From: Sphingomonas suaedae | GTDB taxonomy: Bacteria > Pseudomonadota > Alphaproteobacteria > Sphingomonadales > Sphingomonadaceae | DNA: 64,000 nucleotides | Assembly: GCF_007833215.1 (NCBI RefSeq) | Contig: NZ_CP042239.1 | Span: forward strand, 1,736,001-1,800,000 | Reading direction: 5' to 3' | Shown: positions 15,393 through 34,638 of the stretch, one piece after another | Layout of the letters: each line of letters starts with the position of its first letter | Position numbering within the stretch: the stretch's first letter is position 1 | The notes under the pieces: model-generated | Databases searched by the model: none | The model's input: only the letters and a program-made list of their open reading frames with translations | Told to the model about the DNA's origin: nothing | Translations under genes and position numbers: made by a program

Positions 15393-15500
15393 CGTCACCC
15401 CCGCGAAAGCGGCAGCCCATCTCCCCGACTGCCCACGTCCCGCACCGGTGTGATGCGCCGATCGTGCTGGAGAGGGACGCCCGCTTTCGCGAGGTGGCGT
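15393..15500. repeat. Degenerate inverted REP pair without a gene
   Basis: The left unit (15393-15424) matches 27 of 32 positions of the repeat that flanks the GIY-YIG gene at 33721. The right unit (15469-15500) is an opposed, more decayed version. The 44-bp centre has no coding potential. It occupies the gap between the methionine operon promoter and the glycosyltransferase stop. Confidence 0.5.
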
Positions 15501-24330: not shown

Positions 24331-24614
24331 TTTGCCACCGCTTCTCTTAGCCCCTCCCGCCTTCAGGGGAGGGGGTGGGGGAGGTCTTCTTTCTTCTTTT
24401 TCCTCCGCAACAAACGCGCGGCTTCAAATCCGGACGCGGCCATACCCCACCACCTCTCCCCCTTTCCGTCATGCTGAACTCGTTTCAGCATCCACCGCGT
24501 AACAAGCGACTGAGCCGCTGGCGGAGAGGTGGATACCGAAACACGTTCAGGATGACGGAGGGATGCGCAGCCGAGGGATTGCCATGTCGGCTGATCGGCC
24601 CGCACTATGGCCGC
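24331..24614. repeat. Repeat-filled gap between clpA and the rhomboid gene
   Basis: No gene is seen. A half copy of the CCCCTCCC/GGGGAGGG element sits at 24351-24376, followed by a T/C-rich run. An inverted pair of 31-nt arms (24466-24496 and 24528-24558, about 25 matches) begins CCGTCATGCTGAACTCGTTT. These are interspersed REP-like repeats. Confidence 0.7.
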
Positions 24615-30421: not shown

Positions 30422-30672
30422 TAAGAAGGCCGCACCTCATCCTTCCAACCCATGACCGCCGGCACCCCGCGATCCATCCGTCACCCCGGCCCTGTGCCGG
30501 GGTCCACCCCACCCCACGCCCAGCGACAGACCCTCGCGCACCGCGCCGGCCTCCCGGTAGACCCCGGCACAAGGCCGGGGTGACAACTGGAGAAAATCGA
30601 GCATTTTCATATGAATCGCTCTCGGTAGAGAGGCATCATTGATGTCCATCCACCGGCTGATATTCTGTCGTC

Positions 30673-32374: not shown

Positions 32375-32399
32375 GCGCGCTCCTTCGATGTCCTTGCTT

Positions 32400-32469
32400 T
32401 CCTGCGAAAGCAGGAACCTAGGGCCACACGCACTGCCGCCCGGGACCCTGGGCTCCTGCTTTCGCAGGA
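32400..32469. repeat. Inverted REP pair between aldehyde dehydrogenase and xseB
   Basis: Arms TCCTGCGAAAGCAGGAACCT (from 32400) and its near-complement (32446-32469) are opposed; each includes a CCTGC/GCAGG hairpin. The pair occupies the divergent promoter region of the two genes. Confidence 0.65.
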
Positions 32470-32553
32470 GAACACGCTGATGGCGCCATTCTACAGTCCA
32501 CCGCCCAATCGCGGGAGGTTGAATTGGTTCCCCTGCCATCGCATAGCATCGCC

Positions 32554-32799
32554 ATGACCGACGATATCGACATCGCTTCCCTGTCCTTCGAAGATGCGCT
32601 CAAGGAACTGGAGCGGATCGTCAGTCGGCTGGAAAGCGGCGACGCGCTGCTGGACGAGGCGATTGCGCTGTATGAACGCGGCGATGCGCTGCGCCGTCAA
32701 TGCGCCGCCCGGCTCGATGCGGCACAGGCCCGGATCGAGGCGATTCGCGCCGACGCCAACGGCAATGTCACCGGCACCACGCCGTTCGCAGCAGGATGA
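32554..32799 (+). CDS. xseB: Exodeoxyribonuclease VII small subunit
   Basis: 81 residues, the usual XseB size. The conserved core SFEDALKELERIVSRLESGD and LYERGDALRRQC is present. With XseA it degrades single-stranded DNA and takes part in mismatch and other repair. xseA is not in the window. Its stop overlaps the ispA start by 4 bp (ATGA at 32796), the common xseB-ispA arrangement. Confidence 0.93.
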   Translation: MTDDIDIASLSFEDALKELERIVSRLESGDALLDEAIALYERGDALRRQCAARLDAAQARIEAIRADANGNVTGTTPFAAG

Positions 32800-33707
32800 G
32801 CACCCAGGTGGCGGACGCCAGCCTCTCGCTCCAGGCCGCGCTCCGCGATGTCGCGGCGGAGGTCGACCGCCAGTTCGACCATCTCCTCGCCGTCCCCGCC
32901 GATCCCCGCGCGCGGCTCTATGAGGCGATGCGCCATGCCGCGATCGGCGGCGGCAAGCGGCTCCGCCCGCTGCTCACCTTCGCCACCGCGCAACTCTTCG
33001 CGGTCGATCGCATCTGTGCCGCGCGCGCAGCCACCGCGATCGAGTGCATCCATGTCTATTCGCTGATCCATGACGATCTGCCGGCGATGGACGATGACGA
33101 CATGCGCCGCGGCAAGCCGACGGTGCACAAGGCATTCGACGAGGCGACCGCGATCCTCGCCGGCGATTGCCTCCACGCGCTCGCCTTCGAGATTCTCGCC
33201 GATCCCGCCACCCATGCCGATCCCTTCGTCCGCAACGAACTGATCGCCGATCTCGCCCGCGCCTCCGGCCCATCGGGCATGGCGGGCGGCCAGATGATGG
33301 ACCTGATGGCCGAGGGGCAGAGCTTCGACCTCGCCACCGTCACCCGCTGCCAGGCGCTCAAGACCGGCGCGCTGATCGCCTGTTCGGTCGAGGCCGGCGC
33401 GATCCTCGGCCGCGTCCCGCCGGAAGGCCGTACGGGCCTGCGCGGCTATGCCCGCGACATCGGCCTCGCCTTCCAGATCGCCGACGACATCCTCGACGTC
33501 GAGGGCGATCAGGACGCGGTCGGCAAACAGCTGCGCAAGGACGAAGCGGCGGGCAAGGAAACCTTCCTCACCCTGCTCGGCCTCGACCGCGCCCGCGAAC
33601 AGGCGCGACTGCTCGTCAACCAGTCGATCGCCCACCTCCACAGCTACGGCCCCGAAGCCGACCTCCTCCGCGCCATCGCCCGCTTCGTGCTGGAACGGGA
33701 CCGGTGA
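32796..33707 (+). CDS. ispA: Farnesyl diphosphate synthase (short-chain polyprenyl synthase)
   Basis: 303 residues. It condenses IPP with DMAPP/GPP to farnesyl diphosphate for quinones, undecaprenol and carotenoids. The first aspartate-rich motif is HDDLPAMDDDD and the second is QIADDILDVEGD; the GKRLRPLL segment binds IPP. Coupled to xseB by an ATGA overlap. The dxs gene that often follows in this operon type is absent here; instead a repeat-bounded GIY-YIG gene follows. Confidence 0.93.
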   Translation: MSTQVADASLSLQAALRDVAAEVDRQFDHLLAVPADPRARLYEAMRHAAIGGGKRLRPLLTFATAQLFAVDRICAARAATAIECIHVYSLIHDDLPAMDDDDMRRGKPTVHKAFDEATAILAGDCLHALAFEILADPATHADPFVRNELIADLARASGPSGMAGGQMMDLMAEGQSFDLATVTRCQALKTGALIACSVEAGAILGRVPPEGRTGLRGYARDIGLAFQIADDILDVEGDQDAVGKQLRKDEAAGKETFLTLLGLDRAREQARLLVNQSIAHLHSYGPEADLLRAIARFVLERDR

Positions 33708-33714
33708 GGACACG

Positions 33715-34121
33715 CCTCACCGTCATCCCCGCGAACGCGGGGACCCATCTCCCGAACGCGCGTCGAGCGTAACGGCGAGATGGGCGGCTGGGTTTACATC
33801 CTCGCCAACCGCAAGAACGGCACACTCTACACCGGCGTTACCGCCGACATCGCCGCCCGAATGGTCCAGCACCGCGAAGGCACAGGCAGCCGATTCACCG
33901 CGCGCTATGGCGTGACCCGCCTCGTCTACGCCGGACCCCACGACGACATCACCGCAGCCATCGCCCGCGAAAAGGCGATCAAGAAATGGCGACGTGCCTG
34001 GAAAATCGAGCTGATCGAGCGCGACAATCCCGATTGGCGCGACTTGTTTTTCGACATCAACCGCTGATTGTGCTGTTAGCGCAGGAGATGGGTCCCCGCG
34101 TTCGCGGGGATGACGATGAGG
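33715..34121. mobile_element. Candidate REP-bounded GIY-YIG element
   Basis: Perfect 32-nt terminal inverted repeats (33721-33752 and 34084-34115) extend outward by six more bases with one mismatch, giving 38-nt arms. Each arm contains the palindrome CCCCGCGAACGCGGGG. The 331 bp between the 32-nt arms hold one intact GIY-YIG gene and little else. No target-site duplication is visible. The right edge lies ten bases before the coaD ATG and appears to supply its GAGGG ribosome binding site. The layout resembles REP-associated transposase (RAYT) units, with a GIY-YIG nuclease in place of the tyrosine transposase. Confidence 0.6.
33780..34067 (+). CDS. Single-domain GIY-YIG nuclease-like protein
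   Basis: 95 residues, just the GIY-YIG domain: the first motif is WVYILAN, the second LYTGVT (Y17, G19), with R27 in AARMVQHREG and a glutamate in AREKAIKKW, the expected catalytic set of the YhbQ/UPF0213 class. Such proteins are small nicking or structure-specific DNA nucleases, mostly uncharacterised. Enclosed by exact inverted repeats and inserted between ispA and coaD. Start ATG 33780 is 27 bases inside the left repeat. Whether it acts on its own flanking palindromes is an inference. Confidence 0.82.
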   Translation: MGGWVYILANRKNGTLYTGVTADIAARMVQHREGTGSRFTARYGVTRLVYAGPHDDITAAIAREKAIKKWRRAWKIELIERDNPDWRDLFFDINR

Positions 34122-34131
34122 GCTTTGATTC

Positions 34132-34638
34132 ATGACCACTCGCACCGGCGTCTATCCCGGCACCTTCGATCCGATCACGCTCGGCCATATGGACATCATC
34201 CGCCGCGGCGCGAAGCTGGTCGACCGGCTCGTCATCGGCGTCACCACCAACCCGTCGAAGAATCCGATGTTCAGCGTCGCGGAGCGGATGGACATGGTCC
34301 GCCGCGAAGTGGCGGATATCGAAGGCGAAATCCATGTCGTCAGCTTCGATTCGCTGCTGATGGACTTTGCCGAGCGCGAGGGGGCGAGCATGATCGTGCG
34401 CGGCCTGCGCGCCGTCGCCGATTTCGAATATGAGTATCAGATGGCGGGGATGAACCAGCAGCTGAATGGCCGGATCGAAACCGTCTTCCTGATGGCCGAT
34501 GTCTCGCTCCAGCCGATCGCCAGCCGCCTGGTCAAGGAAATCGCCCTGTTCGGCGGCGAGATCCGCAAATTCGTCCCCGCCACCGTGCGCGACGAGGTGG
34601 TCGCGCGGGTCGAGAAGATCGGCCGCAAGGGCAGCTGA
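34132..34638 (+). CDS. coaD: Pantetheine-phosphate adenylyltransferase
   Basis: 168 residues, normal for CoaD. The nucleotidyltransferase motif GTFDPITLGH is at residues ~10-19 and the RGLRAVADFEYE segment follows at about 88. It makes dephospho-CoA from 4'-phosphopantetheine and ATP, the penultimate step of CoA synthesis. Its ribosome binding site GAGGG overlaps the outer edge of the GIY-YIG element. Confidence 0.95.
   Translation: MTTRTGVYPGTFDPITLGHMDIIRRGAKLVDRLVIGVTTNPSKNPMFSVAERMDMVRREVADIEGEIHVVSFDSLLMDFAEREGASMIVRGLRAVADFEYEYQMAGMNQQLNGRIETVFLMADVSLQPIASRLVKEIALFGGEIRKFVPATVRDEVVARVEKIGRKGS

Follow-up and report, generated by a model that had tools for sequence, protein, structure and literature searches.

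A GIY-YIG nuclease gene within two inverted CGTC-tagged palindromes in Sphingomonas suaedae: a putative REP-type element

In the genome of Sphingomonas suaedae a small gene for a GIY-YIG nuclease stands between ispA and coaD and is enclosed by two inverted copies of a palindromic repeat. This raises the question whether the gene and its repeats belong together as one element or have only come to lie side by side. The question was addressed in the window, by which we mean the whole stretch of 64,000 nucleotides that was analysed, from base 1736001 to base 1800000 of its contig, in the rest of the genome, which is a single 4.15-Mb contig, and in genomes of the genus and of more distant taxa. The preliminary description of the locus had proposed a REP-associated GIY-YIG unit that parallels the RAYT-REP units, and the results given below support this proposal.

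Layout of the unit between ispA and coaD

The features of the locus are given in Table 1. The complementarity of the two 32-nt arms was exact when it was re-checked, and their extension to 38 nt with one mismatch was borne out at 33715-33752 and 34084-34121. Each arm had also been described as holding a hairpin palindrome, and the fold predicted for it is a hairpin with a 4-nt loop and a stem of 7 bp, the basal A being opposite a C. The 22-nt core of the palindrome has 2 exact copies in the window, where 0.01 would be expected even with up to 3 mismatches. An Rfam search across the unit gave zero matches. The GIY-YIG gene is, as had been stated, the only convincing gene inside the unit (Pfam GIY-YIG, E 9e-15; pLDDT 94.6 for the structure model of the 95-aa protein), and further open frames, such as the one at 33723-34145 on the minus strand, overlap it mechanically. 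One claim found no support, namely, that the right edge of the unit provides the ribosome site of coaD. The GAGG in question is at 34118-34121, just beyond the CGTC edge, in sequence that further copies do not have in common, and therefore it probably belongs to the host DNA and not to the unit.

Table 1. Coordinates of the unit, its neighbours, and a degraded doublet of the same class in the window
Feature	Position	Strand	Evidence or remark
Whole unit, CGTC to GACG, 395 bp	33721..34115	+	Doublet length and comparison of copies
Left arm: CGTC tag, 7-bp stem with 4-nt loop, CCCATCTCC tail	33721..33752	+	
Right arm, exact inverted copy of left arm	34084..34115	-	
Single-domain GIY-YIG nuclease gene, 95 aa	33780..34067	+	PF01541, E 9e-15
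Gap of 13 nt, ispA stop to CGTC edge	33708..33720		Counted by eye
Gap of 16 nt, GACG edge to coaD start	34116..34131		
Left neighbour, ispA-type polyprenyl synthetase	32796..33707	+	PF00348, E 1.1e-54
Right neighbour, coaD-type cytidylyltransferase	34132..34638	+	PF01467, E 8.4e-26
Degraded gene-free doublet, same repeat class	15393..15500		ssDNA fold -31 kcal/mol, z -4.2

In an alignment of 34 proteins, Y6, Y17, H31, E64, and N83 are invariant and R27 is present in at least 90%. By sequence the protein resembles UPF0213 and, with modest scores, its modelled fold resembles the catalytic domains of Slx1, UvrC, and I-TevI. None of the three GIY-YIG proteins that were tried against NCBIfam matched a model there. 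Compared with UPF0213/YhbQ, Slx1, the N-terminal domain of UvrC, and the catalytic domain of I-TevI, the protein described here has no extra domain and its gene is not in an intron. The gene is free-standing in an intergenic gap and is encoded neither in an intron nor in an intein as homing endonucleases are. At yhbQ of E. coli no flanking repeat was found, the longest exact match being 8.

Copies of the palindrome elsewhere in the genome

The perfect palindrome CCCCGCGAANGCGGGGA occurs 20 times in the genome and the reversed control occurs 0 times. Two of these copies are in the gene unit, 13 are in eleven distinct gene-free doublets, and 5 are unpaired within 460 bp; thus, 15 of the 20 have an inverted partner at no more than 460 bp, the two in the gene unit included. 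CGTCA is carried by 19 of the 20. The eleven gene-free doublets are inverted, with arms as in the unit, and they fall into two size classes of 90-91 and 107-111 bp. Among the perfect-palindrome copies of this genome, gene-free copies outnumber gene-bearing ones, with 11 doublets to 1. A single intact doublet, when folded as single-stranded DNA, gave a z of -9.8, and the traits of REPINs, namely, inverted doublets, a preferred spacing, and a fold into one hairpin, are present, the fold being taken from this one doublet. The solo repeat that had been pointed out at 15393-15500 is real, yet it is degraded and has mismatches in both palindromes. A search of the genome for a Y1 (RAYT-type) transposase, PF01797, did not find one.

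Flanking repeats of GIY-YIG genes in the genus and in wider taxa

Solo GIY-YIG genes were collected from 41 genomes of the genus, that of S. suaedae included, by fetching part of the solo matches, and this gave at least 100 distinct genes. The 102 rows of the set reduce to 100 distinct genes, since L133 duplicates L022 and L024 is entered a second time in another frame of the same gene. A flanking inverted repeat was counted when its score was at least 15. Such repeats flank 77 of the 100 distinct genes (79 of the 102 rows) versus 0 of 393 control windows, which came from the same loci and had the same geometry, and 47 of the 100 reach a score of at least 25. None of 12 ORFs of UvrC length, which are putative UvrC genes and were taken as the longest such ORF per locus (L121-L132), reached 15. 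Below the threshold are 23 of the 100 genus genes and 14 of the 80 named loci described next.

The named loci are the best 80 of at least 573 confirmed matches and are not a random sample; three of them are also in the genus set. Flanking inverted repeats are present in 66 of these best 80 versus 1 of 433 controls, and in 53 of the 66 a CGTC/TGTC-type tag lies inside the matched arm. The best 80 are mostly from alpha-proteobacteria, with some from beta-, gamma-, and delta-proteobacteria and a few from other phyla; among the four loci from Acetothermia, Planctomycetaceae, Omnitrophota, and Scalindua, that of Scalindua alone passes. A homologue in a Neisseria MAG (L218) has CGTC palindromes on its flanks. 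A gene placed between two inverted REPs, which is a trait of RAYTs, is thus present here.

Palindrome type and protein clade

In the genus set the two arms match within a gene, differ between genes, and follow the protein tree. The arm type is GTTCCCCGGCGAAGGCCGGGGYCCAG in one clade, CGTCATGCTGAACTTGTTTCAGCATCCA in a second, and CGTCACCCCGGNCTTGTNCCGGGGTCCAC in a third, while the more distant group d has the palindrome TTCG..CTGAGC..GTCGAAGG. The protein clade predicts the palindrome (Mantel r 0.57, n = 77, p 1e-4; without group d, r 0.49, n = 57, p 1e-4); this test and the copy-number tests given below were computed without a species tree, and part of their signal is shared descent because 120 of 169 pairs with similar proteins and shared arms are syntenic on both sides. 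Among the genus genes that pass the threshold, a CGTC-type tag is present in 26 of 27 in group a, 7 of 8 in group b, 5 of 22 in group c, and 9 of 20 in group d. The low share of tags places groups c and d mostly outside the CGTC super-family, and therefore the association of GIY-YIG genes with repeats is broader than this super-family.

The load of repeats in the 41 genus genomes, with each gene's own arms subtracted, also goes with the clade. The first palindrome has a median of 35 copies in the 13 genomes with the cognate clade versus 2 in the 28 without it (p 0.001), and the second has a median of 4 in 7 genomes versus 0 in 34 (p 6.5e-5). Five genomes without a classified gene of groups a, b, or c have 0-5 copies of the three patterns and the other 36 have a median of 29.5, where three of the five do have weak unclassified GIY-YIG matches and G012, which is also unclassified, is counted among the 36. 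The clade-c pattern has 79 copies in G029 and 100 in G035, and the collected set contains a clade-c gene from neither of these genomes; G002 has two GIY-YIG genes and 0 copies of the three scanned patterns, the arms of its genes belonging to other classes. When the arms were anchored independently, two of three groups showed covariation of left and right arms among clade-mates. The third group showed no effect (p 0.36), and the second is not wholly one orthologous locus.

Occupied and empty sites

The gap between ispA and coaD was read in 29 relatives (fetched from 40) and at 22 loci besides that of S. suaedae, these being overlapping sets out of 294. That the gene interrupts the ispA-coaD neighbourhood was confirmed in that 0 of the 29 relatives have a GIY-YIG match in the gap, and ispA and coaD are within about 75 bp of each other in 26 of them. 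No match to the sequence of the unit was found in the gap at the 22 loci. Several of these 22 gaps hold unrelated sequence, one (L268, in G200) may hold a remnant of a GIY-YIG end as judged by eye, and in three (L246, L247, and L250, in G026, G250, and G251) a doublet that belongs to another class and lacks a gene sits 13 nt past the ispA stop, which by eye is the same offset at which the unit of S. suaedae begins. The preliminary description had named two patterns that would speak against a REP-associated unit, namely, a conserved ispA-GIY-YIG-coaD order and an arm repeat that is distributed without association with GIY-YIG genes. Neither was found: the order is not conserved in the relatives, and arm repeats do accompany GIY-YIG genes with their type following the clade, while orphan classes that lack a gene also exist.

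A 701-nt query that contained the unit has at least 15 related copies elsewhere in the genomes of the genus. Among the 15 matches listed, the copies start at query bases 104-123, where the unit starts at 122, and nine end at 516-526, where the unit ends at 516, while six end at 455-469, short of the right arm. Seven copies were fetched, of which six are complete and measure 383-397 bp and the seventh has no aligned right arm. When these are taken together with the copy in S. suaedae, the first 33 nt inside the edge have a pairwise identity of 0.78, whereas the 25 nt outside it have 0.28-0.31, which is chance-like. The left edge reads CGTC in seven of the eight copies and GGTC in the other (L273).

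The 169 pairs mentioned above, apart from the 120 that are syntenic on both sides, include 3 that are syntenic on one side and 46 on neither. With 120 pairs syntenic the case for mobility is one of distribution alone, and not every GIY-YIG locus is a freely jumping element. No target-site duplication beyond chance was found among 81 elements (3 nt, 2 versus 1 expected; 4 nt, 0 versus 0.3), and a palindromic target outside the tag showed a weak excess (0.35 versus 0.29, p 0.002). From these sequence comparisons, the GIY-YIG gene appears often to be an old resident at a fixed locus in the genus while the gene-free doublets appear to be a dispersed population, and the subfamily of S. suaedae appears also to have come to occupy different sites as a unit.

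Interpretation of the unit

We consider it somewhat probable that the locus is a REP-type element in which a GIY-YIG gene lies within two inverted copies of the palindrome that its own nuclease recognises. This reading is supported by a discrete unit edged by CGTC and GACG, by related units elsewhere, by gene-free doublets with the same ends, and by a palindrome that follows the clade. We infer the following course of events. Where a strand is exposed, on the lagging strand, in repair, or in DNA uptake, the tagged palindrome would form a hairpin, the nuclease would bind it and nick at or next to the tag, and host repair would copy or join the freed doublet elsewhere. Acting in trans, the nuclease would serve a whole family of doublets that lack the gene, a role like the one ascribed to RAYTs for REPINs. 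The GIY-YIG enzyme probably recognises the palindrome as a hairpin of single-stranded DNA, and the outcome of the putative cutting may be mobilisation, which we favour, or control over DNA uptake or repair, and the two may go together. Since the pairing of enzyme and matching repeat recurs in many bacteria, the GIY-YIG nuclease is a strong candidate for the enzyme by which a large class of these repeats is recognised and perhaps also spread. A wider proposal, which we make tentatively and hold to be somewhat short of probable, is that a second mobile system of the REPIN type has evolved independently and is widespread in proteobacteria, that it consists of the CGTC REPs and related palindromes, and that in it a GIY-YIG ssDNA nuclease replaces the tyrosine transposase. 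We know of no bacterial transposase that uses the GIY-YIG fold.

Relation to known repeat systems

In the parts of the work of Di Nocera, De Gregorio and Rocco (2013, PMC3733652) that are drawn on here, REPs are sorted into two super-families, GTAG and CGTC. CGTC-tagged REPs are described there as having a CGTC tag, a 4-5 nt loop, and a CCA-like tail, and as occurring mainly as head-to-head dimers, mostly in alpha-proteobacteria; the hosts listed include S. wittichii, S. chlorophenolicum, and Bradyrhizobium, and the CGTC-1 repeats of Neisseria are equated with dRS3. In the same parts, RAYTs are reported next to GTAG repeats, no RAYT is reported with CGTC repeats on its flanks, and the enzyme of the CGTC repeats is left open. 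The class in S. suaedae has the unpaired tag at one end, CGTC or TGTC, that marks CGTC REPs, and head-to-head inverted dimers predominate in it too, with 15 of the 20 palindromes partnered. CGTC REPs have a stem of 8-9 bp with A-T in the first positions and a loop of 4-5 nt; the class here has a loop of 4 and a CCCA tail, in keeping with the description, and a predicted stem of 7 bp. What goes beyond the 2013 description, as far as those parts extend, is that many CGTC-type palindromes here flank GIY-YIG genes, as do the mostly tagless palindromes of groups c and d.

With RAYTs, or REPtrons, and REPINs, as portrayed in the portions of Nunvar (2010, PMC2817692) and of Bertels and Rainey (2011, PMC3116915) used here, the system shares a nuclease gene within two inverted REPs, gene-free doublets that form hairpins, and co-variation of enzyme and repeat. 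The latter portray RAYTs, in those portions, as single-copy, apparently not self-moving, and with a phylogeny largely congruent with that of the species, and this picture is similar to that of an old resident gene with dispersed doublets obtained here. RAYTs, so described, are tyrosine transposases related to IS200/IS605 and go with a GTAG tag, whereas here the enzyme is a GIY-YIG nuclease, the tag is CGTC, and the genome has no Y1_Tnp.

No publication that links GIY-YIG enzymes to REP-type repeats was found among the top-ranked literature matches, where subscription papers were mostly outside the scope, and we make no claim that the link is absent from print. A 2025 paper is said to describe Ssn as site-specific single-strand GIY-YIG nucleases that act on the NTS repeats of Neisseria. 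The system reportedly consists of a small GIY-YIG enzyme and a matching dispersed repeat and has thousands of homologues, and cleavage is said to be limited to single-stranded DNA and to have a role in natural transformation. On account of this report, the pairing of GIY-YIG genes and repeats may already be partly in print. What is said to define Ssn, a GIY-YIG domain with a dispersed cognate repeat, has its counterpart here in the domain, the dispersed copies, and the palindrome that follows the clade.

Other explanations

The nuclease could instead serve the host as a site-specific ssDNA nuclease like Ssn. The repeats would then be recognition sites that affect DNA uptake, repair, or gene expression, the arms would regulate or mark their own gene, no repeat would be mobilised, and a new locus would be reached by ordinary recombination between repeats. 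We regard this as possible but rather unlikely. The many related genes at conserved loci, 120 of the 169 pairs, would be in keeping with it, the covariation of arms in two of the three groups is expected if arms are kept for function, and the role that Ssn of Neisseria reportedly has in natural transformation also points this way. In addition, because a doublet of another class lies at the same offset past the ispA stop in three genomes, recombination at a pre-existing repeat could have brought the gene there. However, this explanation alone does not account for the many sites that carry a gene-free doublet of fixed length, nor for the sharp-edged related units at different sites.

It is very unlikely that the genes are passengers, that is, that the repeats spread by replication slippage or through another enzyme and GIY-YIG genes became trapped between two copies. 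The presence of several doublet classes in the same genome, some of them with no cognate gene found, would fit passengers, but such flanks are missing from the controls used, which are the control windows and the 12 ORFs of UvrC length, and the palindrome type tracks the protein tree. That the arms are no more than intrinsic terminators on the two sides of a small gene is scarcely credible, for although the hairpins are GC-rich and intergenic, the 32-nt arms are exact and share a tag and a tail outside the stem, the arm has no T-run, gene-free inverted doublets exist, and such pairs are missing from the control windows.

The association with GIY-YIG genes fills, as a hypothesis, the enzyme gap of the CGTC repeats, which make up one of the two large super-families of bacterial REPs. 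A cognate nuclease would also be a second case, beside RAYTs, in which a nuclease persists together with many tiny repeats. With a cognate nuclease, an orphan repeat class becomes a testable system with many natural pairs of enzyme and site, and the suggested rule is that the target of many small GIY-YIG enzymes can be predicted from the palindromes that flank the gene. Should the Ssn report cover the flanking repeats of the homologues, the pairing is known, and what this analysis would then add is that the unit is discrete, that the doublets exist, that there is a link with the CGTC super-family, and that enzyme and repeat co-vary from clade to clade.

Other repeat classes and GIY-YIG genes in the genome

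Repeats of other classes were also seen in the window. At 24467-24493 there is a lone copy of CGTCATGCTGAACTCGTTTCAGCATCC, and a GIY-YIG gene of the clade cognate to this class was not found in this genome. A gene-free doublet at 32393-32480, TTTCCTGCGAAAGCAGGAACC / GGCTCCTGCTTTCGCAGGAG, resembles the arms of the GIY-YIG genes L047, L053, and L102 of relatives, a clade of which likewise no member was found in this genome. Genome-wide (G000) there is an orphan class of 17 CGTC palindromes of the CCCAGCG..GCTGGG type for which no cognate GIY-YIG gene was found here. Another gene-free doublet, at 30479-30585, is of a further CGTC class, CGTCACCCCGGCCCTGTGCCGGGGTCCACC with an inverted partner, and resembles the arms of the GIY-YIG genes L095, L104, and L113 in relatives.

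The genome has two further solo GIY-YIG genes, each bracketed by palindromes of another class. The third solo gene (L024, G000:C1:2034745-2034918) is split across two reading frames and therefore may be broken; its palindromes persist, and the clade-c pattern has 29 copies in the genome. The second (L022, G000:C1:242560-242778) has palindromes of the CGTCACCCCGGGCTTGACCCGGGGTCCCGCT type on both sides, and its neighbours look by eye like tuf and rpsJ.
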